DNA of 55,144 nucleotides from an uncultured Bacteroidota bacterium (GTDB lineage Bacteria > Bacteroidota > Bacteroidia > Chitinophagales > Chitinophagaceae). Below, in pieces: positions 6,176-30,836 of the stretch (its first letter is position 1; every line of letters begins with the position of its first letter). The position numbers and the translations under genes are program-made. Location: assembly GCA_903821465.1 (NCBI GenBank), contig CAIJLK010000242.1, positions 1 through 55,144 of the forward strand. The letters run 5' to 3'. The notes under the pieces were generated by a model. That model searched no databases. It saw nothing but the letters and a program-made list of their open reading frames with translations, and was not told the origin of the DNA.

Positions 6176-7567
6176 CTATTTCCCTTTTCCAGATATAACA
6201 ATACGAATTGTGTGCATCATTATTTTGAAGTCGAGTAATAATGATATGTTCTCAATATACATGAGGTCGTATTTCATTCTTTCGATCATTTCTTGAACAG
6301 AAGAAGCGTATCCAAATTGGATCATTCCCCAGGAGGTAAGTCCGGGTTTTACTTTTAACAGGTACCGATAATAAGGTGCTGTTTTTAAGATATAATCGAT
6401 GTAAATTCTTCGCTCGGGCCTTGGTCCAACAAAACTCATATTTCCAATTAAAATGTTCCATAGTTGTGGCAATTCATCAATTCTCCATTTGCGCATAAAC
6501 TTGCCCCATTTTGTGATTCGTAAATCGTAGTCTGAAGAAAGTGAGGGTCCGTCTTGTTCAGCATGGTCGTACATGCTTCTGAATTTGTAAATAACAAACA
6601 GTTTCCCTTTAAGTCCAACCCTTACTTGTGAATAGATGATATTGCCTGGAGAAGAGTACTTTGTGATAATGGCAACTAATAATAAAAGGGGACTTAAAAA
6701 AAGCAAGTTAAATATGGAGAATCCAATATCGAAAAGCCTTTTAATATTCTTTTGCCAATAAGGAAGTAGTTCGATTTCTAAGTCAATCAATGTGGCTCCA
6801 AAAACATTATTAGTTTTAACTGATCCCGAAATTATATCAATCATACTAGGTGCAATTTTGATATGCACTTCCTTTTCAATTAAAGCATTTATGATATTTT
6901 CTGCTTCTTGATATTGTTTCTTATCAACGGAGAGAATTACCTGGTCAATTTTTTTCTTGTCGATTACTTCATCTATTTCATCTACTGTTCCCAAACAATT
7001 TAGATATTTACTTAGGCCATTTTTAGAGTCATCTTTTGAAGTCAAATAACCAACTGGTTTGAGTCCTAGATAAGAAAAGTTCTTGATTAATTCTTTATAA
7101 ATACTTACCGCATTCGAATTATTGCCAATGAATAGGGTGTTAAAATAGACACGTTGTTTGATAATGTCCCTTTTTACTTTTTCTAGTATCAATGCTCTTC
7201 CAATAAAAATTATAGAAAATTGAATAAGAAGATAAAGGCTAAGTATTGCTAGATTATTATTTGGAAAATTAATCATCCAAATAATGAGAATAAACAAAGA
7301 TGTGTTGATAATGGTATCTGTTAATTCATTCAATCTCGATTTTTGATAAAGCGATTTCTGGTAACTACCTAATAATAAATACCATAAAAGCCATAGCATT
7401 GGAATCAAAAAATAATCTTTTACTAATTCATTGGTTTGAATATTATCAAATGAAAGAAATGCAATTTGATTAGGCAGAGAAATTCGCCGAAATAGTAGCC
7501 AACTGATTAATGAAAATACATAATCGCTGAGGGCATAAATTGCGCTATTCCTGAGTTTTTTTTGCAT
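6176..7567 (-). CDS. Exopolysaccharide biosynthesis polyprenyl glycosylphosphotransferase (WcaJ-type priming enzyme)
   Basis: N-terminal TM bundle plus bacterial sugar transferase domain: RVGLKGKLFVIYKFRSM, DELPQLWNILIGNMSFVGPRPE, KPGLTSWG. Confidence 0.93.
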   Translation of the reverse strand: MQKKLRNSAIYALSDYVFSLISWLLFRRISLPNQIAFLSFDNIQTNELVKDYFLIPMLWLLWYLLLGSYQKSLYQKSRLNELTDTIINTSLFILIIWMINFPNNNLAILSLYLLIQFSIIFIGRALILEKVKRDIIKQRVYFNTLFIGNNSNAVSIYKELIKNFSYLGLKPVGYLTSKDDSKNGLSKYLNCLGTVDEIDEVIDKKKIDQVILSVDKKQYQEAENIINALIEKEVHIKIAPSMIDIISGSVKTNNVFGATLIDLEIELLPYWQKNIKRLFDIGFSIFNLLFLSPLLLLVAIITKYSSPGNIIYSQVRVGLKGKLFVIYKFRSMYDHAEQDGPSLSSDYDLRITKWGKFMRKWRIDELPQLWNILIGNMSFVGPRPERRIYIDYILKTAPYYRYLLKVKPGLTSWGMIQFGYASSVQEMIERMKYDLMYIENISLLLDFKIMMHTIRIVISGKGK

Positions 7568-10174: not shown

Positions 10175-12919
10175 TTGAGTTTGCAAAAGCTAACATTCGA
10201 TATTGACCAATGGGATAGATTATTTCCTTTTTTCATTCTTATCAATGAACAAATGGAGATTGTAAGTCATGGCAAGTCGATCGGGAAACAAAATAATATA
10301 CATAAAAATCAAAGATTCGAAACAGTCTTTCACATTAAAAATTCCATAAGTAGCGAACTTAGTTTTGAAAATATTAAGTCAAATAAAAGTAAAATATATT
10401 TTCTTGAAACGATCGATATTGCAACGCATCAAAATCTAAAGGGGCAGTTTGAGTATTTAGTAGATTCCAATCAACTTATTTTCATTGGGTCAGCTCTAAC
10501 TGAGAAGGAATTAACTGATGTGCGTCTTGAAACGCAAAGAGATTTTTATGAACGGGTATTGAATCAAATCCCATCTGACATAGCAGTATTCGACAAAGAT
10601 CATCGGTACTTATTTCTGAATCCTGTTGCCATTAAGGATCCCGAACTAAGATTTTGGATGTTGGGTAAAAGAGATGAGGATTATTGCCGCTTTAGAAATA
10701 AGCCAATAGAAATAATGGAAAGCCGTAGAGCTCTATTCAGCCGTGTACTAAAAGAGAAAAAGTTATTTGTATATGAAGAGACATTGATAGATAGGGAAGG
10801 TAATCCTGAATATCATTTGAGAAATATGTATCCTGTTCTTGACGAAAATGGGGAAGTGTCGATAGTAATCGGTTATGGCGTTAATATCACAGAAAGCAGA
10901 AATATTGAGATCCAGATGCGTATCAATGAAAAACGATATCGTGATCTATTTAATTATAGTCAGGCTTTGATTTGTACCCATGATCTGAATGGTATTATGC
11001 TTTCTGTTAATCCTGCTATATGTGATTCTTTAGGGTATTGTAGTGAAGAAATGGTTGGTAAATCTTTGGGCGATTTTATGCATCACAAAGATGCTGAAAA
11101 TCTCAAGAAAGATTATTTAGATATAATCAATAAAGACGGGAAAGGAAAAGGGGTATTCAGGGCCATGAGTAAAAATGGGAAAAAGCTATACTTACTTTTC
11201 CAAAACTATTTATTTGAAGAAAAAGGTATTGCCCCTTATATAATTGGATTCTCCCAAGATATTACTGAAAGAGTGCAGGCAGAAAATGAACTCTTGCTGG
11301 CTAAGCAGTTTACCGAAAATGTTTCTAAGGCAAAAGAGATTTTCCTTGCTAATATGAGTCATGAGATTAGAACTCCCATGAATGGAATTCTTGGTATCGC
11401 AAATTTGATGGCAAAAACGCAACTCGGAGAACAACAAAAAGATTACTTGAAATTGATTCTTGAATCTGCGAACAATCTCTTAGTAATTGTGAATGATGTT
11501 TTGGATATCGAAAAAATTGCATCAGGAAGGATTGAGTTTGAACAGATCCCATTTCTTTTTGAGGATAGAATTCGAACTTCTATGCAATCCTTTCAATATA
11601 AAGTAGAGGAGAAAGGACTCTTTATGAATTATATTTCTCCTTTAGAGGAAGACCTTGTACTAATAGGTGATCCTTATCGATTAAGTCAGATTTTCAATAA
11701 CCTTCTTAATAATGCCATCAAGTTTACCAATGAAGGAAAAATACTTATTGAGATTTCGGTAATTCAAAAGAAGGCTGATAAAATTATTATTCGATTCTCT
11801 ATATCTGATACTGGAATTGGGATAGATATGGGTCGGTTGGAAAATATTTTTGAACCTTTTATTCAAGCATCTACCGATACCACTCGGAAATTTGGTGGAA
11901 CAGGATTAGGACTTTCTATCTGTAAAGATTTAGTTGAAATGCAAGGAGGCCAGATCTCTGTTAATAGTGTTTTGCATCAGGGTACCACTTTCAATTTTCA
12001 ACTCCCATTTACGATTGGGTCAAAAGATATGCTGCTTGCTGAAGATCAGGCTCCGGAAGATTATAGCTTGTTAGGGAATAAGTATATTTTAATTGCGGAA
12101 GATGTGGAATTAAATCAATTCATCGCAAGGCAAATTCTGGAGACTTGGGGAATGAAAGTAGCCATTGCTAATAATGGAAAGGAAGCGGTTGATATGGTTT
12201 CGATAGAGCAATTCGATTTAATTCTTATGGATATTCAAATGCCAGAAATGAATGGTATTGAAGCTACCCAGATTATTCGAAAAATGCAGGAGGATAAAAT
12301 CGCTAAAATCCCAATTGTAGCTTTAACAGCAAATGCTTTAAAAGGTGATAACGTAAGATATCTTCAGGCTGGAATGAACGATTATATCACCAAGCCTTAT
12401 ACAGAAGCAAAACTATATTCTGTGATAAGCAAATTCTTGCAACCTGATCCAATTAAACTAGCTAGAAAAATTTCAAAAAAAGATCATAAATCTATTGAAT
12501 CCAAATCTAAAAGATTACTGGTTGAAGATTCTGATAAAAAGTTAAAAGCCCCTGTTGTGAAATTGTATGATTTAACAATGGTTGAATTAATTGGCAAAGG
12601 AAATCCCGGATTCATACAAAAGATGGTTTCATTGTTTTTAGAGCAAGTCTCTGAAGACTTAGAAAAAATGAATAAATCTGCTGAAATAGGGGATTGGGAT
12701 TTGGTTTCAAAAATTGCACACAGAATGAAATCTTCTATCGAAGGAATGGGAATTAATTTACTAAAAGATTCGATACGTGACATTGAAACAAAAACCCGCT
12801 TGAACAAACCCATCAATGATTCTGAAATTCATGTCCAGGTTCGTTTTGTTACCGCTACAATGGAAAAAGTTCTAGATCAACTTCGCATTGATTTTCCGGA
12901 AAGTTCTGTTCCCCAATAG
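10175..12919 (+). CDS. Hybrid sensor histidine kinase (HNOBA-like, PAS-PAS-HisKA-HATPase-REC-HPt)
   Basis: MSHEIRTPMNGILG (H box), DTGIGID, FGGTGLGLSI (G boxes), REC LILMDIQMPEMNG, HPt AHRMKSSIEGMG. N-terminus WDRLFPFFILINEQMEIVSHGKSI ... NLKGQFEYLVDSNQLIFIGSAL resembles the HNOBA domain. Confidence 0.93.
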   Translation: MSLQKLTFDIDQWDRLFPFFILINEQMEIVSHGKSIGKQNNIHKNQRFETVFHIKNSISSELSFENIKSNKSKIYFLETIDIATHQNLKGQFEYLVDSNQLIFIGSALTEKELTDVRLETQRDFYERVLNQIPSDIAVFDKDHRYLFLNPVAIKDPELRFWMLGKRDEDYCRFRNKPIEIMESRRALFSRVLKEKKLFVYEETLIDREGNPEYHLRNMYPVLDENGEVSIVIGYGVNITESRNIEIQMRINEKRYRDLFNYSQALICTHDLNGIMLSVNPAICDSLGYCSEEMVGKSLGDFMHHKDAENLKKDYLDIINKDGKGKGVFRAMSKNGKKLYLLFQNYLFEEKGIAPYIIGFSQDITERVQAENELLLAKQFTENVSKAKEIFLANMSHEIRTPMNGILGIANLMAKTQLGEQQKDYLKLILESANNLLVIVNDVLDIEKIASGRIEFEQIPFLFEDRIRTSMQSFQYKVEEKGLFMNYISPLEEDLVLIGDPYRLSQIFNNLLNNAIKFTNEGKILIEISVIQKKADKIIIRFSISDTGIGIDMGRLENIFEPFIQASTDTTRKFGGTGLGLSICKDLVEMQGGQISVNSVLHQGTTFNFQLPFTIGSKDMLLAEDQAPEDYSLLGNKYILIAEDVELNQFIARQILETWGMKVAIANNGKEAVDMVSIEQFDLILMDIQMPEMNGIEATQIIRKMQEDKIAKIPIVALTANALKGDNVRYLQAGMNDYITKPYTEAKLYSVISKFLQPDPIKLARKISKKDHKSIESKSKRLLVEDSDKKLKAPVVKLYDLTMVELIGKGNPGFIQKMVSLFLEQVSEDLEKMNKSAEIGDWDLVSKIAHRMKSSIEGMGINLLKDSIRDIETKTRLNKPINDSEIHVQVRFVTATMEKVLDQLRIDFPESSVPQ

Positions 12920-12937
12920 AAAGCCTTTACCTGTTAT

Positions 12938-14743
12938 TTAATTAAATAATTCAAAGTTTTTGATACTTGTTAGTGTGTGCTGATCTTCGAGTGTTGTTGC
13001 ACAGGCTTCTGCATGCGGTAATTCATACTTGAAAAAGAATTCCATCGTATGTATTTTACCTTCATAAAAACTTTGATTATTTGATTGAAAGTCTGACTGA
13101 CTTATTTTCTTTGCAGCTACGACCGACATTTTCAGCCATTGCCAAGCTATGACTATATGCCCAGCCATTTCCATAAATACTGTTGCATCTGATAGATATC
13201 TTTCGAGATCTCCTTTAACAGCATAGCCAGATAAATGTTCTAGAACTTTACTCATTCTCTGTAATTCCTGGCCAAGTTTTTTTGCATAGGGGATTAGTTG
13301 TTCATAGGCACTTGCCTCTTGCATGGTATTGGTTATGGATAAGATTAAGAGCTTGACTGCCTTTCCGTTTTGCAATACCACTTTTCTTCCCAATAGGTCC
13401 ATCGATTGTATTCCAGTAGTTCCTTCATATAATGACATGATCTTTAAATCACGATATAATTGTTGAACAGGGAAATCGGTTGTGAATCCATATCCACCCA
13501 AAGTTTGTATTGCCAATGAGGCAGATCTGCTTCCCTGTTCTGAAGCATAAGTTTTTACAATAGGAGTAAGGAGTTCAAGCAACAATAAATTATTATCCTT
13601 TTCTTCGCCCTCTGTTCCATGCACTTGATCGTAGAGTTTATTACATTCCATTGCCAGCGATAAAGAAGCTTCTGCAATTGATTTTTGTGTAAGCAGCATA
13701 CGCTGTACATCTGCGTGGTTGATGATTAAAGTAGGGGGCTTGCTAGGATCTTTTTCAGAAACCAATCGTCCCTGTGGACGCTCCAGGCAATATTGCAGTG
13801 AAGCCTGATACGCAGCCATAGCAACAGCTGCAGCACATTGTCCCACACTGATTCTTGCACCATTCATCATCTGAAACATATAGGATAGTCCCTTATGCGG
13901 TTCTCCAACTAGGAAAGCCCTACAATCGTCATTGTCACCAAAGGACAAGTGAGTAGTTGCATAACCTCTTTGTCCCATTTTTTGAAAATCGCCAGCACAA
14001 TGAACATCATTGTATCGCATAGTTCCATCAGCTTCCAGCGTGTATTTTGGAATGATAAACAAGGAGATTCCTTTTACACCCGCAGGTGCTCCTTCAATTC
14101 TTGCAAGGGTGAGGTGTACAAAATTATCTACCGCTTCATGTTGCCCGCCTGAGATAAATATTTTTTGTCCCTTTACAAAATAATAACCCTTTTCAGTTGC
14201 TTTTGCACTAGTAATAATATCAGAGAGTGAACTTCCTGCCTGTGGTTCAGTCAAAGCCATGGTACCCTGCCATCGACCTTCATAAATAGGAGGCACATAA
14301 GTTTCTATTTGTTCTTGGTTTCCAAAACTAGTGATGAGATCTGCTGAGCCAGTCGATAGACCAATATAGCCTTGAACACTATTATTTGCGGATTGAAAAA
14401 TGCTTTGTCCAGTATTGAATATCATTTCTGGCAATTGCATGCCACCGTGTTCAAATTTAGCGGCTCCCCCGATCCAACTTTGAGCTGCTGCTGATTGAAT
14501 GATCTTTTTTAATTGGGGATGTGTTTTTACAGCCCCTTTGCCGTCATAAGTTGCTGGATGTTCATCTAATATTTTGAAATAAGGAAACATTTCCTGATCA
14601 GCTAAAAGCTTTGCTGATTCAAGGATCATCCATGTTTGCTCTGCATCTAAATGGGCAAATCTCTCATACTTAAATAAAGTGTCAACTCGATGTGTGTCGA
14701 ATAAAAGAAAGCGAATGAATTCCATGCTTGTATAGCGTGCCAT
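12938..14743 (-). CDS. Acyl-CoA dehydrogenase
   Basis: MALTEPQAGSSLSDI, GQKIFISGG, IQTLGGYGFTTDFPVQQLYRDLKIMSLYEGTTGIQ. Confidence 0.93.
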   Translation of the reverse strand: MARYTSMEFIRFLLFDTHRVDTLFKYERFAHLDAEQTWMILESAKLLADQEMFPYFKILDEHPATYDGKGAVKTHPQLKKIIQSAAAQSWIGGAAKFEHGGMQLPEMIFNTGQSIFQSANNSVQGYIGLSTGSADLITSFGNQEQIETYVPPIYEGRWQGTMALTEPQAGSSLSDIITSAKATEKGYYFVKGQKIFISGGQHEAVDNFVHLTLARIEGAPAGVKGISLFIIPKYTLEADGTMRYNDVHCAGDFQKMGQRGYATTHLSFGDNDDCRAFLVGEPHKGLSYMFQMMNGARISVGQCAAAVAMAAYQASLQYCLERPQGRLVSEKDPSKPPTLIINHADVQRMLLTQKSIAEASLSLAMECNKLYDQVHGTEGEEKDNNLLLLELLTPIVKTYASEQGSRSASLAIQTLGGYGFTTDFPVQQLYRDLKIMSLYEGTTGIQSMDLLGRKVVLQNGKAVKLLILSITNTMQEASAYEQLIPYAKKLGQELQRMSKVLEHLSGYAVKGDLERYLSDATVFMEMAGHIVIAWQWLKMSVVAAKKISQSDFQSNNQSFYEGKIHTMEFFFKYELPHAEACATTLEDQHTLTSIKNFELFN

Positions 14744-17468: not shown

Positions 17469-17870
17469 ATGGCAACTGTTGACTCTAATTCTTTAAAGAT
17501 GTTAATTGTAGAGGATGATAAATTCATGCAATCAATTCTTAGCAAATATTTCAGTAATCATTTTCATTTAGAGGTTTTTTCTGATGGGTTTGAGGCATTA
17601 GCTTATTTACAAGAAGGCAATATCCCTGACTTAATAATAACTGATTTAAATACGCCTAAAATGGGGGGACTTGATTTGATCAAACAGGTTAAGGCTAGTG
17701 ATTTTTTTAATTCCATTCCCATGATGGTTCTCTCAGGTGAGGATAGTTCTGAAATGATTGTAAAGTGTTTGGATGCTGGTGCTGATGATTTTATAGTGAA
17801 GCCCTTTAATCCGAAGGAATTAGAAGCAAGAATTAAAGTAGTTCTGAGAAGAACAGGCAATCTATTATGA
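17469..17870 (+). CDS. Single-domain response regulator (REC only)
   Basis: LIVEDDKFMQ acidic pair, phosphoacceptor in LIITDLNTPKMGG, VKPFNPKEL; no output domain in 133 aa. Confidence 0.93.
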   Translation: MATVDSNSLKMLIVEDDKFMQSILSKYFSNHFHLEVFSDGFEALAYLQEGNIPDLIITDLNTPKMGGLDLIKQVKASDFFNSIPMMVLSGEDSSEMIVKCLDAGADDFIVKPFNPKELEARIKVVLRRTGNLL

Positions 17871-17884
17871 TTCATTAATTTGTT

Positions 17885-19102
17885 ATGACTGATTCAGCTT
17901 CCCCCAATAAATCCAAATTATCGATAGTTGCACTGATTAATTGTGATTCTGTAGTAACAAATATGCTACATCATTTCCAATTGGGTAATGTTAAACTGAT
18001 TTCGTTTAAAAATGGGATTGATTTATTAGACCGATGGGAGCAAGACGATTGGGATTTAACTGCTATAATTAGTCAAAGTGAAGTAATGGCCCCTTCTGGG
18101 GTATCTCTTTTAGAAACGCTAAGAATCAAAAAAAACTTTCAAATTCCTTTCTTTATTATTTGTCAAAATCTGAATGATAAAATTTTAAAGATAGCATTAC
18201 AAGCTGGAGTAGCAGAAGTTTTTAAAATGCCTTTTAATCCCGAAAAATTTGAAACTAGATTTAATTTTATTCATGAATATTGGGCCGATATACGAAACTC
18301 AACAAATATCCTGGGAAATAAATCGGCGATTTATAAAACTCCATTAGTGAAACGATTGTTCGATATTGTAGTTTCCGCAACTGCATTAATCGTACTAGCA
18401 CCTATATTTATAATTGTAGGGATTCTAATAAAATTAGAATCTAAAGGCCCCGTTTTTTACTATGCTTTGAGGGTTGGAAGGGGATACCATATTTTTCGCT
18501 TTTATAAATTTAGGTCCATGCATTTTGATTCAGATAAAAAGTTGAAAGATCTGAAACATCTGAATCAGTATACTATCAAAAAGCGTCATAAGAAAGTGGA
18601 AGATGAGGAGATTTCTTATGAATTTCTTTGTGAAGATTGTAGGGCTAATGGTGCACATTGTCAGTTTCCCGTTTATTCTGATACAGTGCATATGTGTGAG
18701 AAGGAATATATGGAACAAAAGCACCTTAGTAGAGAGTCAACCTTCATCAAAATAAAAGATGATCCAAGAATGACCAAGGTCGGAAAGTTTATAAGAAGAT
18801 CTAGTATTGATGAATTACCTCAATTATGGAATGTTTTGATTGGCGACATGAGTATTGTAGGAAATAGACCATTGCCATTGTACGAGGCCGAAAAATTAAC
18901 TACCGATAAATATGCACTCCGCTTTATGGCCCCAGCCGGAATTACTGGTTTGTGGCAGGTAGAAAAGAGAGGGAATGGAAAGATGTCAGAAAATGATCGA
19001 TTAATCCTAGACAATATTTATGCCAAGAACAATAGCTTCTTGAATGATATTATACTGATATTAAGAACCTTCCCAGCATTATTTCAAAGCGAGAACGTTT
19101 AA
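17885..19102 (+). CDS. Degenerate receiver domain fused to bacterial sugar transferase (priming glycosyltransferase)
   Basis: N-terminal ~130 aa receiver-like without phosphoacceptor Asp; C-terminal PGT motifs RVGRGYHIFRFYKFRSMHFDSD, DDPRMTKVGKFIRRSSIDELPQLWNVLIGDMSIVGNRPLPLYEAE. Confidence 0.9.
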   Translation: MTDSASPNKSKLSIVALINCDSVVTNMLHHFQLGNVKLISFKNGIDLLDRWEQDDWDLTAIISQSEVMAPSGVSLLETLRIKKNFQIPFFIICQNLNDKILKIALQAGVAEVFKMPFNPEKFETRFNFIHEYWADIRNSTNILGNKSAIYKTPLVKRLFDIVVSATALIVLAPIFIIVGILIKLESKGPVFYYALRVGRGYHIFRFYKFRSMHFDSDKKLKDLKHLNQYTIKKRHKKVEDEEISYEFLCEDCRANGAHCQFPVYSDTVHMCEKEYMEQKHLSRESTFIKIKDDPRMTKVGKFIRRSSIDELPQLWNVLIGDMSIVGNRPLPLYEAEKLTTDKYALRFMAPAGITGLWQVEKRGNGKMSENDRLILDNIYAKNNSFLNDIILILRTFPALFQSENV

Positions 19103-19960: not shown

Positions 19961-20689
19961 ATGCATATTGTAAATAATAAAACAAGATCATCTCTTTTGG
20001 AACCACGATTGAAAATGATTGTTTTAGTTTTTTCATTTCTCATATTTTCAAGTTCTTTTTCAAAACTACTGGCTCAGGAGTCAATGATCCCAGAACTGTC
20101 GAATAGTTTTTTGAGCCAATTAATTGATACTGCAAAAAAATATTATCCGCTTGTGAAAATCAATCAGAAACGGATCGATATATCCTATATCAATTTTCAG
20201 AAAAGTAAAATGGCTTGGTTTGATGTTTTTTCTTTAACCCTTAATTATAGCCCCAATGGCAACACAACAACCAGCTTAAATCAACCTACATTATCGGGTT
20301 TTCAAATTGGACTTTTCATCAATTTTGGTAGCATTTTACAAAAGCCATATTTAATAAAAGTTGCTAAAGAAGAAGTAGAACTTGCTTATTTGAATAAACA
20401 AGAAATATTGCTTACAACTGAAGCCGAGGTAAAAGCACGATATATAAAGTTTGTTCAAAGCTCTGTATTGTTGCGTATGCAAAGCAAAATAGCTATTGAA
20501 GCAGAAAGTGTAGTAAAAGATGCTCGGTATAAATTTGAAAAAGGGGAAGCTAATTTCGAAACTTTTACTAAGGCATTGATTTATGAGTCAGATAATCGAA
20601 AACTGGTTATTGACGCTGAGGCTAATTTACTTATTGCCAAAGCAAGCCTTGAAACAATTGTTGGCAAAAAACTATCAGAAATTCACTAA
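19961..20689 (+). CDS. TolC-family outer-membrane protein, approximately half length
   Basis: Signal peptide; LSQLIDTAKKYYPLVKINQKRIDISYINFQKSKMAWFDVFSLTLNYS and helical repeat with KFEKGEANFETFTKALI; only 242 aa. Confidence 0.65.
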   Translation: MHIVNNKTRSSLLEPRLKMIVLVFSFLIFSSSFSKLLAQESMIPELSNSFLSQLIDTAKKYYPLVKINQKRIDISYINFQKSKMAWFDVFSLTLNYSPNGNTTTSLNQPTLSGFQIGLFINFGSILQKPYLIKVAKEEVELAYLNKQEILLTTEAEVKARYIKFVQSSVLLRMQSKIAIEAESVVKDARYKFEKGEANFETFTKALIYESDNRKLVIDAEANLLIAKASLETIVGKKLSEIH

Positions 20690-22902
20690 TGGAAGTTGCA
20701 AAATTTATAAAGCTTTTACTTAAGAGAAAATGGTTGATCATTGGTGTTCCTCTGATAATAGTGGCCATTACATTCTATATCGTTAAAAACATGGCCGATA
20801 CCTATGGCTCTCATGCTAGGATGTCGACTGGTTTAGTTGATAAATCACAACAGATACTAAGTTCAGATGGATTTCAGGAAAGTAGAGTCAATAGTGATTT
20901 TGCAAACTTGATGGAAATGATGCGTCTGAATAAAGTGTTTGATCAGATTACTTATAGACTAATTATTCATGATCTTACTGATAGCGTTCCTTTTCGACCG
21001 AAGAGCAAATTGTTGAATGAATTAAATAAGGAAGCAATTAATCATGCTGTATCAGTTTATAGAAAGCATTACCAAGTTCGGGAACCCCTAAATGGGTATA
21101 ATCAAGATGAAATGGGGTTGATTAAATTAATTAGTAGCATGGATTATAATTACGATGCACTAATAAAGAATATTGGTATTTTTCGTCCAAATAATAGTGA
21201 TTTTATTGATGCTACTTTTGATTCGGAAAATCCGAATCTCTCTGCTTTTGTTACAAACACATTGTTTGAAGAATTCATAGCTTATTATTCAGACTTCGTT
21301 AGGGGTAATCAACAAAAAACGGTGAACTTTTTAGACACTTTGTTGCGTCAGAAAGAATCTGAAATGAATAGGCTGAAGGTATTATTGAAAAACTATAAGA
21401 TTCAGAATCGGGTTTTGAATTTAAATGAACAAGCTAAGAGTTTATATGGACAGCTTTCAACTTTTGAAACCATGAAACAATTAGCAGAAAAAGACGTAGC
21501 TGCTTTTACTGGGTCTTTAAAAAATATTGAGGATAAGTTCAACCCGAACGAAAGAAAATATTTTGAAGCTACAATGGTACCTATCAATCAGCAAATTGCT
21601 GCTACCAAGCAATATTTGCTGAATTTGTCGGATGAATATATTAAAAGTAATTACGATGAAAAAATAAAAAAGAAAATTGATTCGGCTAAAAATGTAGCAA
21701 CAATTCAAATTCAACAAGCTACTGATCGGTATATCGTAAACCCACTTGCTGCAAAAGAAAGTTTGATCATGCAGAAAGTTAAACTTGAATTGGACAATGA
21801 CATTGCCAAATTCAGTTTAACTACCATTTCTGATGAATTAATTCGACTGAATAAAAAATTTGATTTACTAGTTCCACATGAAGCGGTGATTCAAAACTAT
21901 GAGGGTGCTATTGATGTGGCGAGTAAAGAATATTTGGATGCACAATTCAGGTACAATAAATCTAGCCTTGAATCAAGTCTTGCTATCTCACTTAGGCAAA
22001 TTGAGTTTGGTATTCCTGGCCCTGCTAGCCCAACCAAAAAAATGTTTTTAGTAATCTTGTCTGGTCTGGTTAGTTTTATTTTGATACTTCTGGGCTTATT
22101 CGTTGTATTCTATCTTGATGATTCTTTGTCGGCTACAAGTGAACTTGCCGATAAAACAAATCAGGTTGTACTCGGCTATATTCCTTTATTGACAAGTTCT
22201 GTTGTTCAGCTGAAATCATTATGGGAAAAACCTTTTGATGATGATCTTAGGCTGCAAAATTTCAAGGAAATGTTGCGGTCTTGCAGATTCGAAATTGCAA
22301 GTGAAATGGGGAAGTCGAAACTTTTAATGGTTAATAGTCTCTGCTATGGTGAGGGGAAAACACTTTTCACAATGAGCTTGGCTTATGCTTTCTTGATGAC
22401 ACGTAAAAGAGTATTATTGATTGATGGCAATTTTGCAAATCCTACTATTAGTGCTGCTACCGGCACTGAATTTTTCCTTGAAGATTATCTTTTAGGTGAA
22501 TCTCAATTGCCTTCATTTAGACCAATTACAGAGATTATGGTAATGGGTACAAGGGGCGGAGATACTAGCTTATTGGAAATAAGTAACTCAGAAAATATTG
22601 TAGCTAAACTTGATTTATTAAAAGATGCATTCGATATCATTATTATTGAATCTGAGGCATTGTCTTCCTTTAATAAGTCGAAAGAATGGGCATTGTTCTC
22701 AGAAAAAGTATTGACCGTTTTTGAGTCCGGAAGGAAAATTAATTATAAGAAAAGGCAAAATGTAATTTATCTGAATGGACTTGAAGGCAAATTCATAGGA
22801 TGGGTATTAAATAGAGATCAAAATGAAACGCTTGTAAATCCTAAAAAAATTAAGAAAAGAGCCACCATTTTCTCAAAAAATATTGAATTGCAATGGGCTT
22901 AA
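20689..22902 (+). CDS. Wzz/Wzc-like chain-length determinant with degenerate BY-kinase-like domain
   Basis: N-terminal TM and Wzz domain, long coiled coil, second TM (KKMFLVILSGLVSFILILLGLFVVFYLDD), P-loop YGEGKTLFTMSLAYAFLMTRKRVLLIDGNF. Confidence 0.85.
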   Translation: MEVAKFIKLLLKRKWLIIGVPLIIVAITFYIVKNMADTYGSHARMSTGLVDKSQQILSSDGFQESRVNSDFANLMEMMRLNKVFDQITYRLIIHDLTDSVPFRPKSKLLNELNKEAINHAVSVYRKHYQVREPLNGYNQDEMGLIKLISSMDYNYDALIKNIGIFRPNNSDFIDATFDSENPNLSAFVTNTLFEEFIAYYSDFVRGNQQKTVNFLDTLLRQKESEMNRLKVLLKNYKIQNRVLNLNEQAKSLYGQLSTFETMKQLAEKDVAAFTGSLKNIEDKFNPNERKYFEATMVPINQQIAATKQYLLNLSDEYIKSNYDEKIKKKIDSAKNVATIQIQQATDRYIVNPLAAKESLIMQKVKLELDNDIAKFSLTTISDELIRLNKKFDLLVPHEAVIQNYEGAIDVASKEYLDAQFRYNKSSLESSLAISLRQIEFGIPGPASPTKKMFLVILSGLVSFILILLGLFVVFYLDDSLSATSELADKTNQVVLGYIPLLTSSVVQLKSLWEKPFDDDLRLQNFKEMLRSCRFEIASEMGKSKLLMVNSLCYGEGKTLFTMSLAYAFLMTRKRVLLIDGNFANPTISAATGTEFFLEDYLLGESQLPSFRPITEIMVMGTRGGDTSLLEISNSENIVAKLDLLKDAFDIIIIESEALSSFNKSKEWALFSEKVLTVFESGRKINYKKRQNVIYLNGLEGKFIGWVLNRDQNETLVNPKKIKKRATIFSKNIELQWA

Positions 22903-24080
22903 ACTTTTCAATGTCACTTTGGGTAATAGTTCAAATATTAATGGGGTATAATCTAGTATTGCCAGTGCTGATCTTTTTAGTTTATCTATTTGTACCAAAA
23001 CCAAAAAAAAAAGAAAAAATATCAGATATCTCAGATTATGCAATTATTGTAACTGCTTATGAAGAGACCCATACTTTAGGTCCAGTTGTTGCGTCTATTT
23101 TAAAATCGACTTATAAGAATTATCTTATTTATATAGTAGCGGATAATTGCGATATTACTGATCTGAAATTTGATGATGAGCGTGTTGTTTTACTGAAACC
23201 AGAAGAGACCTTGTCTAGTAATATCGGCTCACATTTTTATGCTATAAACCGGTTTAAGAGAGCACATAATAGAATTACTATTATAGATAGTGATAATTTG
23301 GTTGATCCTGAATATTTAGCTGAATTAAATGTTTATTTTGATAGCTCTTTTTCCGCTGTTCAAGGGTTAAGAAGTGCCAAGAACATGGATACAGTCTATT
23401 CCTGTTTGGATGCGGCTCGCGATATTTATTATCACTATTATGATGGTAAAATTTTGTTCGGGGTTGGGTCTTCTGCCATGCTAGCAGGTTCTGGAATGGC
23501 ATTTACTACTAGCTTGTATAAAGAATGTCTAGAACATTTAGTTATTACAGGTGCAGGTTTCGATAAGATATTACAAAAGAAAATTGTTGAACTTGGTTAT
23601 CGCATAGCGTTTGCAGAAAAAGCAATTGTATATGATGAAAAAACTTCTCGATCAGACCAATTAGTAAAACAAAGGGCTCGATGGATCAATACTTGGTTTC
23701 GATATTTTAAATTTGGATTTAAGCTTGTTTCAAAAGGAATTACCCAATTTAATTGGAATCAGTTTTTGTTTGGCCTGGTATTGCTACGTCCGCCACTATT
23801 TATTTTTTTATTGATATCGGTACTTTTCATGTTTGTTGATATTATTATTAGCCCAGTTCAGGCTTTAATATGGTTAATAGGGTTTATTGTTTTTATTATG
23901 GGATTCTTATTTGCATTGCTTATGTCAGATACAGATAAACGTATTTACCAGTCACTTTGGGGCATACCAAAATTTATATTCTTCCAAGTGCTCTCGCTAT
24001 TAAAAGTGCATAAGGCAAATGAAATTTCAATTGCTACGCAGCACTATCATGACGAAGAAATTTTTGATCTCAAAAAATAA
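22893..24080 (+). CDS. Membrane glycosyltransferase family 2
   Basis: YAIIVTAYEETHTLGPVVASIL, IDSDNLVDPEYL, QRARWINTW (Q/RxxRW motif), C-terminal TM helices. Confidence 0.88.
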   Translation: MGLNFSMSLWVIVQILMGYNLVLPVLIFLVYLFVPKPKKKEKISDISDYAIIVTAYEETHTLGPVVASILKSTYKNYLIYIVADNCDITDLKFDDERVVLLKPEETLSSNIGSHFYAINRFKRAHNRITIIDSDNLVDPEYLAELNVYFDSSFSAVQGLRSAKNMDTVYSCLDAARDIYYHYYDGKILFGVGSSAMLAGSGMAFTTSLYKECLEHLVITGAGFDKILQKKIVELGYRIAFAEKAIVYDEKTSRSDQLVKQRARWINTWFRYFKFGFKLVSKGITQFNWNQFLFGLVLLRPPLFIFLLISVLFMFVDIIISPVQALIWLIGFIVFIMGFLFALLMSDTDKRIYQSLWGIPKFIFFQVLSLLKVHKANEISIATQHYHDEEIFDLKK

Positions 24081-24083
24081 AAA

Positions 24084-24224
24084 ATGCGTACTAGTCCATC
24101 TGAGAGAATAAAAAAAGAATTAACGGAACAACCTAATCTTGGAATTCAAAGAATTACAAGATTAGTAGCAATTGGTTTTATTGTGCTGATACAATTGGCA
24201 ATCATTTATAAGATGTTATACTAA
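24084..24224 (+). CDS. Putative small membrane protein (46 aa)
   Basis: Own translation: MRTSPSERIKKELTEQPNLGIQRITRLVAIGFIVLIQLAIIYKMLY*; ATG start, fits in the operon gap, one TM segment. Confidence 0.5.
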   Translation: MRTSPSERIKKELTEQPNLGIQRITRLVAIGFIVLIQLAIIYKMLY

Positions 24225-24227
24225 TCA

Positions 24228-25739
24228 TTGGAAGACTTTACATTACATATTGACCCTAATAAAAATCGGCAAAAAACAACAATTGGAAGTTTAATAAGAA
24301 AGTATTTGCTAGTCAAAAAATTTTCTGGTTGGCTAGGCTTTTCATTTTTTTTGATTATTTCTTCTATTCTAGCTTATGCAATAGCAGTATCTGGTTTAAA
24401 AGTAGGGGTAATGATTGCAGCATTATTAGTTGCCCTGCCATTGGTTTATTTTCTGGTAGTAAAGCCGGAATTTGGAATTTTGGTTTATCTAACGCTCGCA
24501 TATACCATAATGTGGTTTTTGAGATATGGAGTGGGGGGCTTTCCTTTAGGTACGCTGATGGATGGAATGCTTGCTTTTTTTATTCTTGGCATGTTTATTC
24601 AAATTAAACAAAATGGCAATTGGTATCTGCTTAAAAGTAAGGTTAGCCTAATGATACTGGTTTGGGTTGTATATACCGGTTTACAATTTGCAAATCCTTC
24701 TGCAGAGTCTAGGCTTGCATGGTTGTATTCGGTTAGAACTGTTGGATTAGTTACTTTAATGTATTTTGTTTTTGTCTATAATATTCGTACTAAAAAATTC
24801 ATAAAGATTATTCTAAAATGGTGGATTTTTTGGTCTTTCATTGCTGCATGTTATGCATTTAAACAGGAATATTTTGGATTTGCTGGGTTTGAACAAAAGT
24901 GGCTTGATGATAGTCCAGAATATGCCGCTCTTCTATTCCTTGCTGGACATTGGAGAAAGTTCTCCATGTTTTCAGACCCTGTAACTTTTGCGTACAATAT
25001 GGTAACAGCTAGTTTTCTTTGTTTGGCTTTAATAACAGGTCCTTTAAAAACTTATTGGAAAGTTATATTAGGATTTCTTTCTGTTTTCTTCTTATACGTC
25101 ATGCTTTTCTCTGGTACTAGAGGGGCTGATCCTTTAGTACCTGCTGGCTTGATACTATATGCAATTCTTAAATTCAGCAGGAAGATTATGATATTTAGTA
25201 CTGCAGCCCTGTTCCTTACGGTTTTCCTAATTTTTTTGCCTACCTCTAATCAAAATATCTTAAGATTCCAAACGGCATTTAGACCAAATCAAGATGCGTC
25301 TTATCAATTGCGAGAGATCAACCAGGCTAGGATCAAACCTTATATTTATACGCATCCTTTTGGTGGGGGATTGGGAGCAACGGGTGAATGGGGAAGGAGA
25401 TTTGCCCCCAATTCTTTCTTGGCAAATTTTCCGCCAGATAGTGGTTATGTTAGAACAACGGTGGAACTAGGATGGATTGGACTTCTCCTATTTAGTTTGA
25501 TGATTTTTACTATTCTTAAAACAGGAATAGATAATTATTATTTAATTAAGGATCCAGAGTTGAAAAGTTATTCATTGGCATTTATATTGGTTGTTTTTAC
25601 TTGGAATCTTGGTAACTTCCCACAACAGGCATTAGTGCAATATCCTTCCAATGTTTTGTTTTTTTTAGCAGTCGCATTAATGGTGGTGATTTTTAGAATT
25701 GATCAGCAACAAAATCTTGAATTCGATGCTAAACTCTGA
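24228..25739 (+). CDS. O-antigen ligase/polymerase-like membrane protein (Wzy_C-like)
   Basis: Many TM segments; LFSGTRGADPLVPAGLILYAIL and the position inside the EPS cluster; TTG start. Confidence 0.82.
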   Translation: MEDFTLHIDPNKNRQKTTIGSLIRKYLLVKKFSGWLGFSFFLIISSILAYAIAVSGLKVGVMIAALLVALPLVYFLVVKPEFGILVYLTLAYTIMWFLRYGVGGFPLGTLMDGMLAFFILGMFIQIKQNGNWYLLKSKVSLMILVWVVYTGLQFANPSAESRLAWLYSVRTVGLVTLMYFVFVYNIRTKKFIKIILKWWIFWSFIAACYAFKQEYFGFAGFEQKWLDDSPEYAALLFLAGHWRKFSMFSDPVTFAYNMVTASFLCLALITGPLKTYWKVILGFLSVFFLYVMLFSGTRGADPLVPAGLILYAILKFSRKIMIFSTAALFLTVFLIFLPTSNQNILRFQTAFRPNQDASYQLREINQARIKPYIYTHPFGGGLGATGEWGRRFAPNSFLANFPPDSGYVRTTVELGWIGLLLFSLMIFTILKTGIDNYYLIKDPELKSYSLAFILVVFTWNLGNFPQQALVQYPSNVLFFLAVALMVVIFRIDQQQNLEFDAKL

Positions 25740-26949
25740 TCATTTAAAAGGTCGTGACATTATAGTTGTTGGACAACAACCTTGGGATATTTCAATTGGA
25801 AGTAATTGTAAGAATATTGCTCTTGAATGGAGCAAGTATAATCGGGTGCTTTATGTGAATTCTCCCTTAGACAGAATTAGTAAATATAGAGGCAAGGATG
25901 ATCCAAAAATCACAAAACGCGTTTCTGTTGTTGAAGGATTTGAATCTGGTTTAGTGCCTATCAAAGACAATTTGTGGAATTTGTATCCAGATGAAATGAT
26001 CGAATCAATTAATTGGATCAAATGGCCCATTTTCTTTGAATTCTTTAATAAAAGAAATAATCGAATATTTTCTAAGTCAATCTTGAAAGCAGTTAAAGAA
26101 TTAGGATTCAAGGACTATATATTGTTTAATGATAATGATATGTTTCGGTCCTTCTATTTAAAATCTTTACTAAAACCTGCAGTCAGTCTTTATTATTCTA
26201 GAGATTATATGTTGGCTGTTGATTATTGGTTTTATCATGGACAGAAACACGAACCTGAATTAATTGCAGATTCAGATATTTGTGTTGCCAATTCTACTTA
26301 CTTAGCAGCGTATTGTAAAAAATATAATAGTAACTCTTTTTATGTTGGACAAGGTTGTGAATTAGACATATTCATGCAAACTAATGGTTTGGCTAAACCT
26401 GATGATATTCTTCCAATTAAAGGGCCAATTATAGGCTATGTGGGTGCCTTACAGAGTATTCGATTAGATATTGTTATCCTGCAATATATCGCTTCAGAAA
26501 GGCCAGATTGGAGTTTTGTACTGGTTGGACCAGAAGATGATGCTTTCAAAGCATCTTCCTTGCATCAATTAGGAAATGTGCATTTTTTGGGATCCAAGGA
26601 TCCTTCAACTCTTCCAGCTTATATCAATTCATTTGATGTTTGTATCAACCCGCAAATTATAAACCAGGTTACTATTGGCAATTATCCAAGAAAGATTGAC
26701 GAATACTTAGCAGTAGGTAAACCTGTTGTGGCTACTAAAACAGATGCCATGAGTATTTTTAAACCATACTGTTATTTAGCAGAAACAAAAGAAGACTATA
26801 TATTAATGATCGAGGATGGATTAAAAAATGACAGTCCAGATTTGAAAATCGAAAGACGCGATTTCGCTTCTGAACATACATGGGAGAACAGTGTATTAGA
26901 AATTGATAAAGCAATTTCTAAATGGGTGTCAACCAAGCATCATTCATGA
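25726..26949 (+). CDS. Glycosyltransferase (GT4/GT1-like)
   Basis: GPIIGYVGALQSIRLDIVILQYIASERPDWSFVLVGPE, KIDEYLAVGKPVVATKT. ATG at 25726 is more likely than the longer ORF start at 25699. Confidence 0.88.
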   Translation: MLNSDHLKGRDIIVVGQQPWDISIGSNCKNIALEWSKYNRVLYVNSPLDRISKYRGKDDPKITKRVSVVEGFESGLVPIKDNLWNLYPDEMIESINWIKWPIFFEFFNKRNNRIFSKSILKAVKELGFKDYILFNDNDMFRSFYLKSLLKPAVSLYYSRDYMLAVDYWFYHGQKHEPELIADSDICVANSTYLAAYCKKYNSNSFYVGQGCELDIFMQTNGLAKPDDILPIKGPIIGYVGALQSIRLDIVILQYIASERPDWSFVLVGPEDDAFKASSLHQLGNVHFLGSKDPSTLPAYINSFDVCINPQIINQVTIGNYPRKIDEYLAVGKPVVATKTDAMSIFKPYCYLAETKEDYILMIEDGLKNDSPDLKIERRDFASEHTWENSVLEIDKAISKWVSTKHHS

Positions 26950-26971
26950 AAAGATCTCTAAACCTTTTTTA

Positions 26972-27865
26972 ATGAAACCAATTACTATAGTTGTTGCATC
27001 TGACGATAATTACTTAGTGCTACTTGCTGCCCTTATTAATTCAATAGAATTGAATTTGAAAGAAGGTTATTCAATTGATCTTTGGGTAATTGAGGACAAT
27101 GTATCGGAGGCTAATAAAGAAAAATTAAAAAATTCAATAAATGCTGCGATAACTCAATTGCATTGGCAATCGATGAATGAAGTGATTCCGAAAGGGATTG
27201 ACTTGCCGCTTGATAGGAGTAGTTATCCATTGAATATTTATATGCGACTCTTCATTCCGTATTTTATTCCTAGCCAAGTTGAAAAAGTGCTATATCTAGA
27301 CGTAGACATGATTGTACAGAAAGACATTTCTACTCTATATGAAATTGATTTAGGTGATACATTGGTTGGTGCTGTCTTAGATCCTAGAATCATCAGTTTC
27401 GATAATTCATGGGGCGGTATTTTGAATTATGAGGAACTGGGTTTAGATGCAAAGACTAGATACTTCAATACAGGGTTGCTATTAATTCCAACGAAGAAAT
27501 GGCTTGAAGAAAATATACCAGTAAGGATCATTAACTGTATCAAGGAAAATAAAAAGTTTGCTAATTATCCTGATCAATACGGCATGAATGTGGTATTAGC
27601 TAACCAATGGCTAGCGTTAGATCCATTATGGAATCATTTCTGTACAATTGACCATCCAAATCCTTATTTAATTCATTTTGTACAAAGAAAACCGATATTT
27701 AAATCATATAGTAACAATCGGGATTATCAAAAAATATTCTATCAATATCTTTGTAATACTGCTTGGAAAAATGAGAGGCCAAGAGGGGAATCAGGAAGGT
27801 ATATGAAAAAAATAAAAAATATCATTGATAAAATTTTGAAACAATTGGGATGGGGATCGCATTAG
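26972..27865 (+). CDS. Glycosyltransferase family 8
   Basis: YMRLFIPYFIPSQVEKVLYLDVDMIVQKDISTLYEIDLG (DxD), YFNTGLLLI, YPDQYGMNVV. ATG at 26972 chosen over the longer ORF. Confidence 0.93.
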   Translation: MKPITIVVASDDNYLVLLAALINSIELNLKEGYSIDLWVIEDNVSEANKEKLKNSINAAITQLHWQSMNEVIPKGIDLPLDRSSYPLNIYMRLFIPYFIPSQVEKVLYLDVDMIVQKDISTLYEIDLGDTLVGAVLDPRIISFDNSWGGILNYEELGLDAKTRYFNTGLLLIPTKKWLEENIPVRIINCIKENKKFANYPDQYGMNVVLANQWLALDPLWNHFCTIDHPNPYLIHFVQRKPIFKSYSNNRDYQKIFYQYLCNTAWKNERPRGESGRYMKKIKNIIDKILKQLGWGSH

Positions 27866-27893
27866 AGTTGCTCAATAATTAAAACAATCATTC

Positions 27894-28754
27894 ATGTTGA
27901 GATCAGTTTTCTTGATATTAGTTCATGCAAATTCGAGTCAGCTTAAAAGGTTGATTGAAAAATTATCTGTTGATGATGCAACTATTTATTTACAGGTAGA
28001 CCTTAAGGTAGACATTTCTATCTTTGCAGAATATCGAAATAACCCCAACCTGATATTTATTAAGAATAGAGTCAAAGTAACCTGGGGTGGGTATAGTATG
28101 GTTCAGGGAATGATTAATAGTTTTAAAGAAATTATTCCTTCATTTCAAAATGACCAGTATGTGTCTGTGATCAGTGGACAAGATTATCCACTCATGCAGA
28201 ATGAAGAAATGAATCAATTTCTGACCCAGAACCCGGGTAAAGCTTTTATGGAATATTATCCCATTTATGAGGTTTGGAAGGAAGCCATTCCAAGGCTTGA
28301 AAAATATCATTTAACAAATTTCAGTTTTCCAGGTAAGTATCGTATCGAGTCTATCTTAAATAAATTGTTGCCAAAAAGAACGCCTCCAAAAAGGTTGAAC
28401 TATATTGGCAGATCGCAATGGTTTACAATCACTATAGAACATTTAAAATATATAGTTGATTTTATGGATACAAATCCGAGTATTAAACGCTTCTTTACAT
28501 TTACCTGGGGTTCTGATGAAGTTGTTTTTCAAACTATATTGTATAGTTCCCATTATAAAGATCAGATGGTAAATAATAATTTGCGTTATATCGATTGGTC
28601 GCAAGGTGGCGCAAGCCCCAAGATATTAACTTTAAGTGATGCTGAGCAATTGAAAAAATCCGGCAAATTTTTTGCCAGAAAATTTGATATGACTGTCGAT
28701 TCGCAGATATTAGATTGGATCGATGAAAATTTATTGACAGAAAAAATAATATGA
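27894..28754 (+). CDS. Beta-1,6-N-acetylglucosaminyltransferase-like (GT14 / core-2 branching family)
   Basis: FLILVHANSSQLKRLIEKL, VTWGGYSMVQGMI, VSVISGQDYPL, GSQWFTIT-like GRSQWFTITIEH, WGSDEVVFQTIL. Confidence 0.85.
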   Translation: MLRSVFLILVHANSSQLKRLIEKLSVDDATIYLQVDLKVDISIFAEYRNNPNLIFIKNRVKVTWGGYSMVQGMINSFKEIIPSFQNDQYVSVISGQDYPLMQNEEMNQFLTQNPGKAFMEYYPIYEVWKEAIPRLEKYHLTNFSFPGKYRIESILNKLLPKRTPPKRLNYIGRSQWFTITIEHLKYIVDFMDTNPSIKRFFTFTWGSDEVVFQTILYSSHYKDQMVNNNLRYIDWSQGGASPKILTLSDAEQLKKSGKFFARKFDMTVDSQILDWIDENLLTEKII

Positions 28755-29665
28755 AACTAGTTTCCATTATAACCGTCAATTATAATCATAGTCATGTTAC
28801 AGATGAATTTCTGGATGCATTTTATAAGACTAATGAGTATCCAAACATTGAAATAATTGTGGTTGACAATGCTAGTAAAATAGACCCGGTTCCAGCTTGG
28901 GTAATTAAATATCCGCAGGTGCAGTTCGTTAGATCGGAAGTGAATCTAGGATTTGCAGGAGGCAATAATGTTGGAATTGGTAAGGCAAAGGGTGATTTGC
29001 TCTTTCTTGTAAATAATGATACGGAATTTACACCTGGATTAATAAAATCGCTGGTAGATAGCTTCAATGAATTCCCCAAAACGGGTATGATTTCTCCTAA
29101 AATCAGGTACTTTCAACAGCCAGATACTTTACAATACGCCGGATATACAAACATGAATTATTTTACTGCTAGAAACTATTGTGTAGGAGCGTTTGAGAAA
29201 GACAATGGACAGTACGATCATTTAAGTGGCCTTACTGGATTTGGACATGGTGCAGCCATGATGGTTTCAAAAGAAGTAATTGAAAAAGTAGGATTAATGT
29301 TTGAGAACTATTTTCTGTATTACGAAGAACTGGATTGGGGAGCTAGGATTAAAAAAGCCGGATTTGAAATAAGACTGAATATGCAGTCGTTGATCTATCA
29401 TAAAGAATCTGTTTCTGTTGGGCAGAAAAGTGCATTAAAAGAATTTTTTATGAATAGAAACAGAATCTTATTCATTAGAAGAAATGCTAGCCTATTTCAA
29501 AGAATTCTTTTTTATTGCCACTTTATTTTTTTGGTTACCCCCAGAAATATATTCAGCTATATCAAAGAAGGACATTCAGATTTTATTCCTATACTATTGC
29601 GTGCCATTTGGTGGAATTTAACCAATAGGGTAGATAGTAAAAATCTGGGTTATAAATTAAAATAA
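28751..29665 (+). CDS. Glycosyltransferase family 2 (rhamnosyltransferase-like)
   Basis: VSIITVNYNHSHVTDEFL, VVDNAS, NLGFAGGNNVGIGKAKGDLLFLVNNDTEF, FLYYEELDWGARIKKAGFEI. Confidence 0.93.
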   Translation: MKLVSIITVNYNHSHVTDEFLDAFYKTNEYPNIEIIVVDNASKIDPVPAWVIKYPQVQFVRSEVNLGFAGGNNVGIGKAKGDLLFLVNNDTEFTPGLIKSLVDSFNEFPKTGMISPKIRYFQQPDTLQYAGYTNMNYFTARNYCVGAFEKDNGQYDHLSGLTGFGHGAAMMVSKEVIEKVGLMFENYFLYYEELDWGARIKKAGFEIRLNMQSLIYHKESVSVGQKSALKEFFMNRNRILFIRRNASLFQRILFYCHFIFLVTPRNIFSYIKEGHSDFIPILLRAIWWNLTNRVDSKNLGYKLK

Positions 29666-29669
29666 GTTT

Positions 29670-30836
29670 ATGCAAATCATATTTTGGATCAGTCTTTTTA
29701 TTATTGTATATACCTATGTAGGGTATGCGGTGGTCCTTTTTTTTATCATTAAAATATTACGCATTTTCAGAAAGAAGAAGACATTTGATCCTAATTATGA
29801 ACTGCCTTCAGTAACGCTAATTGTTGCGGCTTATAATGAGGAATATTGTATTGAAGAGAAAATAAAAAATACAATTGCTCTTGAATATCCTGCTAACAAA
29901 GTGAATTTTATTTTTATTACTGATGGGTCAACCGATAAAACACCCGAAATCATTGCTAGATACCCTTCTATTCAATTAATGCACCAATCTGGGCGGTCAG
30001 GAAAAATTGTAGCAGTGCATAGAGCCATGCAAGAAGTGCATACAGAAGTTGCTGTATTTACAGATGCGAACACTTTGTTGAATAAAGAAGCCTTGATAAA
30101 TATTTGTCGCCATTACCAGGACCCAAATGTTGGCGCTGTTGCTGGCGAGAAAAGAGTACAGATCGACGATAGTGGCGATGCAACAGCGGGAGAAGGGTTT
30201 TACTGGAAGTATGAATCTAAATTGAAGGCTTGGGACTCTGAGTTGTTTTCTGTTGTGGGTGCAGCGGGCGAATTGTTTAGTGTGAAAACTTCCTTATATA
30301 TTCCAGTTCCTGAAGATACACTACTAGACGATTTCATGATTTCAATGCTCATAGCTGAAAAAGGTTATCGAATTGTGTATGAACCTGATGCCTATGCAAC
30401 AGAAACTGCTTCTGCCAATACCAAAGAGGAATTAAAAAGAAAAGTACGTATCGCTGCAGGAGGTATTCAATCATTCTTAAGACTTACGGGGCTATTAAAT
30501 CCATTGAAATATCCGGTATTATTTTTTCAGTATTTGAGTCATCGAATACTTAGATGGACAATCACTCCCTTCTTAATGATCTTTTGCTTTATACTTAATT
30601 TTTATATTGTACTTGCCATGGAAGGCGATTGGAAGTATCAATTAATATTGGTGGTACAAGTTGTTTTCTATGGATTTGCATTGCTTGGATGGATCATGCA
30701 ATCAAGGTCGATCAAAGTGAAGATATTTTTTATTCCCTACTATTTCTGCATGATGAACTATGCTGTTTTTGCCGGAATTAAACGATATATGTCTTCTAGT
30801 CAGTCAGTTTTATGGGAAAAAGCAAAACGAAAATAG
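29670..30836 (+). CDS. Membrane glycosyltransferase family 2 (cellulose synthase/poly-GlcNAc synthase-like)
   Basis: VTLIVAAYNEEYCIEEKI, VFTDANTLLNKEAL, LLDDFMISMLIAEKGYRIVYEPDAYATE, C-terminal TMs. Confidence 0.9.
   Translation: MQIIFWISLFIIVYTYVGYAVVLFFIIKILRIFRKKKTFDPNYELPSVTLIVAAYNEEYCIEEKIKNTIALEYPANKVNFIFITDGSTDKTPEIIARYPSIQLMHQSGRSGKIVAVHRAMQEVHTEVAVFTDANTLLNKEALINICRHYQDPNVGAVAGEKRVQIDDSGDATAGEGFYWKYESKLKAWDSELFSVVGAAGELFSVKTSLYIPVPEDTLLDDFMISMLIAEKGYRIVYEPDAYATETASANTKEELKRKVRIAAGGIQSFLRLTGLLNPLKYPVLFFQYLSHRILRWTITPFLMIFCFILNFYIVLAMEGDWKYQLILVVQVVFYGFALLGWIMQSRSIKVKIFFIPYYFCMMNYAVFAGIKRYMSSSQSVLWEKAKRK

Follow-up and report, generated by a model that had tools for sequence, protein, structure and literature searches.

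How bacteria ration undecaprenyl phosphate among their pathways is an open question. It was not until 2025 that a response regulator was reported to control the priming step, and this was in myxobacteria: in M. xanthus the phosphorylated regulator EpsW stimulates the sugar-phosphate transferase (PGT) EpsZ (PMC12802240, mBio 2025). EpsZ is a large monotopic PGT (monoPGT) with a TM bundle and a DUF, and it has no receiver domain. A passage of the same paper, citing O'Toole 2021, notes small monoPGTs that bear receiver domains; within that passage there is no mention of degenerate receivers or of pairing with a single-domain response regulator (SDRR). The fusion of a receiver to a PGT as such is already known. 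For the pairing of an SDRR with a PGT that carries a pseudo-receiver, no report was found in the literature searched, and searches on pseudo-receivers with glycosyltransferases, on Porphyromonas WbaP with response regulators and on single-domain regulators of Bacteroidetes gave nothing relevant. Atypical receivers and pseudo-receivers of other systems have the receiver fold without the phosphorylation pocket.

How does the present locus compare with these systems? It lies in a window of 55,144 nucleotides, the whole stretch of DNA that was analysed (contig CAIJLK010000242.1 of an uncultured Bacteroidota bacterium, assembly GCA_903821465.1). Like EpsW and EpsZ, it has an SDRR with an intact pocket that is genetically linked to a PGT. 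Unlike EpsZ, the PGT of this locus belongs to the small monoPGTs: it has a single hydrophobic segment and a Cys4 insert, is fused to a pseudo-receiver and is encoded next to its regulator. No DUF or TM bundle was found in it, so it is not an EpsZ-type enzyme if by this a large monoPGT without the beta-hairpin of the DUF is meant. With small monoPGTs of the PglC class it shares PF02397 with the D-E motif, the single hydrophobic segment and the receiver fusions noted in the passage mentioned above. Its catalytic domain is homologous to that of the large monoPGTs WcaJ/WbaP (PDB 8t53, 9s7s), with E 3e-34 against WbaP (8t53), whereas their TM bundle and PF13727 are absent and a receiver-fold domain stands in their place. 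From other pseudo-receivers it differs in its output, which is a sugar-phosphate transferase, and in the intact partner encoded next door. The features of the locus are collected in Table 1.

Table 1. Features of the SDRR-PGT locus and related genes in the window
Feature	Position	Strand	Basis
Candidate input kinase, HNOBA-PAS-HisKA-HATPase-REC-Hpt hybrid	10175..12919	+	Pfam; related kinases in other loci
SDRR, 133 aa, all five pocket residues intact	17469..17870	+	Pfam, alignment
Pseudo-receiver/sugar-phosphate transferase fusion gene	17885..19102	+	ORF call, Pfam
Predicted pseudo-receiver domain, residues 13-140, (beta-alpha)5	17921..18304	+	AlphaFold, Foldseek, profile search, alignment
Asn19-Cys20, place of acidic pair (CheY D12/D13)	17939..17944	+	Alignments
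Gln64, phosphoacceptor position (CheY D57)	18074..18076	+	Alignments
Cys93, place of CheY T87	18161..18163	+	Alignments
Met115, place of CheY K109	18227..18229	+	Alignments
Predicted long alpha5 helix, residues 119-144, heading to membrane segment	18239..18316	+	AlphaFold secondary structure
Arg125, nearly invariant among pseudo-receivers; position of PhoB R115	18257..18259	+	Alignment
Single hydrophobic (re-entrant type) segment, residues 153-188	18341..18448	+	Hydropathy scan
Monotopic PGT catalytic domain (PF02397), residues 156-400	18350..19084	+	Pfam, structure-sequence match
Cys4 insert, C249-x2-C252-x6-C259-x11-C271	18629..18697	+	Four Cys in family alignment
Asp309-Glu310, presumed catalytic dyad, S-I-D-E-L-P-Q motif	18809..18814	+	Invariant in alignment
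Exopolysaccharide (EPS) gene cluster	19961..30836	+	Pfam
EPS cluster content: OEP-family gene (19961), Wzz/copolymerase with ATPase (20689), glycosyltransferases, O-antigen polymerase/ligase-like (24228)			

Architecture of the fusion protein

The fusion gene begins with ATG and encodes 405 aa on the + strand, as the initial annotation had described, and 14 bases separate it from the stop codon of the SDRR gene. Its transferase part matches Bac_transf (PF02397) with E 9e-57. Besides Asp309-Glu310, which we take to be the catalytic dyad of monoPGTs, it has the G-N-R-P and G-L-W-Q-V motifs. The hydropathy scan of the whole protein gave no membrane segment above the cut-off other than residues 153-188, and no PF13727, DUF or TM bundle was found in it by Pfam and hydropathy. 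The PF02397 motifs and the single hydrophobic segment thus make it a small monotopic PGT and not a large one of the WcaJ/WbaP type; the complete transferase domain and the missing TM bundle, both proposed at the outset, are borne out. The enzyme probably starts each exopolysaccharide repeat unit. Another priming PGT of the window (6176-7567, - strand) is of the large type, with PF13727. A scan for promoters and terminators around the SDRR-PGT pair gave counts no higher than in shuffled sequence.

The Cys4 insert in the catalytic domain had escaped the initial annotation. It is present in 57 of the 67 members of the family, some relatives that have no N-terminal domain share it as well, and its absence amounts to about three changes on the PGT tree. 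As a guess, it might be a metal or redox site.

Is the N-terminal domain a receiver at all? Support for this is weak from the single sequence and better from profiles. PF00072 gave 15.3 bits in the full protein (residues 24-125) and 18.6 bits with the N-terminal domain alone, below the Pfam gathering score of 30.2, and CheY chains matched the single fusion sequence with E 0.004. With orthologues included, 23 of 25 N-terminal domains match PF00072 (best 5e-7), and the profile built from the 25 finds solved receivers at E 7e-5. By these matches the domain is a distant homologue of CheY-like receivers. Its AlphaFold model (residues 1-145; mean pLDDT 84, pTM 0.79) shows the strict (beta-alpha)5 order, and a Foldseek search of the PDB with the model ranks CheY and other receivers at the top (E 3e-7, TM 0.66-0.81). 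A full-length AlphaFold prediction with five sequences was good in the receiver part and poor in the PGT part, with a mean pLDDT of 49 there. The initial annotation had claimed a receiver fold and had named a different predicted structure as the outcome that would speak against it; the predicted fold is that of a receiver.

A fused receiver without its pocket

Fusion relatives were collected from the same family, class and phylum (Bacteroidota); ordinary kinases and regulators that also came up in the phylum-wide search with the N-terminal domain (L061, L063-L066, L069) were set aside. In the window fusion the five residues of the phosphorylation pocket, D12, D13, D57, T87 and K109 of CheY, are replaced by N, C, Q, C and M. 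Since the domain has no phosphorylation pocket, we call it a pseudo-receiver. The substitutions at D57, T87 and K109 had been read correctly before, and the loss of the acidic pair comes in addition to them. The Gln at the phosphoacceptor site holds for the window protein and is not a fixed feature: the 65 fused domains have Q in 24, E in 14, D in 9, Y in 5, K in 4, R in 3, H and N in 2 each, and G and A in 1 each. Orthologues with an intact pocket, named beforehand as evidence against a degenerate receiver, are limited to a single case, as the alignment, which is unsure for the most divergent fused domains (L087, L088, L090, L092-L097), shows all five residues in one of the 65.

This one case deserves a closer look. 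A tree of the SDRRs and the fused domains was built by a quick method, and its branches are long among the latter. It groups the 64 degenerate domains in one clade (SH-aLRT 99) and places the sole intact one (L033/L041, genome G078) inside the SDRR clade (SH-aLRT 99). No separate SDRR orthologue was found in the G078 genome. The simplest reading of these sequences is that in G078 the SDRR gene has been fused to the PGT in the place of the pseudo-receiver, and on this reading the fusion is a Rosetta-stone link between SDRR and PGT. It is known from one genome; the other genome of its genus gave no match.

Pairing with an intact single-domain regulator

What stands next to the fused enzyme in other genomes? 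The SDRR of the window matches PF00072 with E 3e-26, and 68 of 70 REC-PGT loci across Bacteroidota have its orthologue immediately upstream, on the same strand, a count that excludes L099, whose N-terminal domain is unaligned. Of 11 PGTs of the subfamily that have no such domain, 4 have an SDRR next to them (Fisher p 3e-6, with kinship ignored). Conservation of the cluster does not account for the pairing, since pairs also occur outside an EPS cluster (L039, L040, L047, L051 and L053). All five pocket residues are kept in 64 of 64 SDRRs. The SDRR is a near-obligatory partner of the REC-PGT. Note that a conserved operon shows functional linkage, not contact. The initial annotation had used the upstream receiver merely as an alignment reference and as an idea for a two-hybrid experiment; it stands at the core of the system.

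Some loci deserve mention in their own right. The genome of the window encodes two SDRR orthologues at E <1e-15, and next to each of them lies a pseudo-receiver PGT; the other pair (L039, contig C191 of G000, 12317-13489) has Lys at the D57 position. At L060 (G532) a histidine kinase takes the place of the SDRR immediately upstream of a pseudo-receiver PGT. In three genomes of one genus (L107, L109, L111), and at L106, the SDRR is beside a PGT that has no pseudo-receiver. The PGT at L098 (G306), also without the N-terminal domain, has one in-frame TAA in the match.

By which surface could the two proteins meet? The SDRRs carry an alpha4-beta5-alpha5 face of the PhoB/OmpR type, with R/K91, D101, E111 and R115 in PhoB numbering, presumably the positions of the PhoB dimer face, and E111 is kept in 64 of 64. 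The pseudo-receivers do not keep R91 and E111; in the 36 nearer relatives the D101 position is acidic in all, and the R115 position is R in 34 and K in 2. With the face intact in the SDRR and D101/R115 kept in the pseudo-receiver, a heterodimer through alpha4-beta5-alpha5 is plausible, and the two positions may also be conserved for reasons other than dimerisation. On the input side, kinases with the same HNOBA-like N-terminus as the candidate kinase of the window adjoin the pair at L007/L045, L008, L048, L057 and L058, and those at L044, L045 and L048 have its complete domain layout. In other families, SDRR-PGT pairs repeatedly have kinases of the HNOBA type beside them, and the kinase of the window probably feeds the SDRR.

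Proposed control of the priming reaction

The locus may be described as a pair of genes that would bring a signal to bear on the step where a polysaccharide pathway begins. We consider it likely that the SDRR, once phosphorylated, controls the priming reaction by docking on the pseudo-receiver. Phosphate would reach the SDRR from a histidine kinase or a phosphorelay, probably from the HNOBA-PAS hybrid with its terminal Hpt. The SDRR would then bind the phosphorylation-dead N-terminal domain of the PGT, and the two would probably pair as a heterodimer by their alpha4-beta5-alpha5 faces. From there the long alpha5 helix would relay the signal to the catalytic domain in the membrane, and transfer of the presumed sugar phosphate to undecaprenyl phosphate would be raised (or lowered). 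The initial annotation had suggested that the N-terminal domain mediates interactions or allostery and in this way couples signalling directly to priming; the SDRR pairing and the natural fusion make this much likelier, and binding and allostery are its presumptive part.

Then why could the pseudo-receiver not act without phosphorylation altogether? It might be a structural or dimerisation module that replaces the TM bundle and the CoA-binding-like domain of large PGTs, and the SDRR might regulate another target of the operon or the catalytic domain directly. The sequence of the pseudo-receiver is indeed variable outside the hydrophobic core and beta5, and the M. xanthus model puts the SDRR on both the DUF and the catalytic domain of a PGT that has no receiver (PMC12802240). 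Because the genus of L107, L109 and L111, together with L106, keeps the SDRR next to a PGT without a pseudo-receiver, the SDRR may be in direct contact with the catalytic domain. However, the near-complete co-occurrence of pseudo-receiver and SDRR, and the replacement of the one by the other in G078, argue for a joint function, and we hold this alternative to be rather unlikely.

Less probable still, and in our judgement distinctly improbable, is that the pseudo-receiver itself senses a cue other than phosphate, such as a ligand, a redox change or a non-cognate kinase, with the SDRR gene merely co-regulated. Atypical receivers that sense such cues exist, and Cys20 and Cys93 occupy the former pocket of the window protein. 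A ligand or redox site would be expected to be conserved, whereas in the 34 nearer relatives C20 is found in 11 and C93 in 10, and co-regulation alone does not explain the G078 fusion. Finally, the lost pocket residues and the divergent sequences might be taken for a decaying remnant that has lost its receiver function and is only carried along, an idea that is largely refuted and has hardly any probability left: the domain is not decaying, since near relatives show purifying selection (dN 0.11-0.15 against dS of at least 1 or saturated), its core positions are invariant in the alignment, and it is one ancient clade conserved across many Bacteroidota families.

Docking of the phosphorylated SDRR on the pseudo-receiver thus stays the preferred reading, by which a two-component signal would turn the synthesis of sugar chains on or off at its very start. 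It proposes a function for an otherwise orphan SDRR, and the natural SDRR-PGT fusion of G078 offers a ready-made test case. Set beside the myxobacterial system, the locus points to a genetically hard-wired version of priming control across Bacteroidota, in which the enzyme would carry its own dead-receiver dock.
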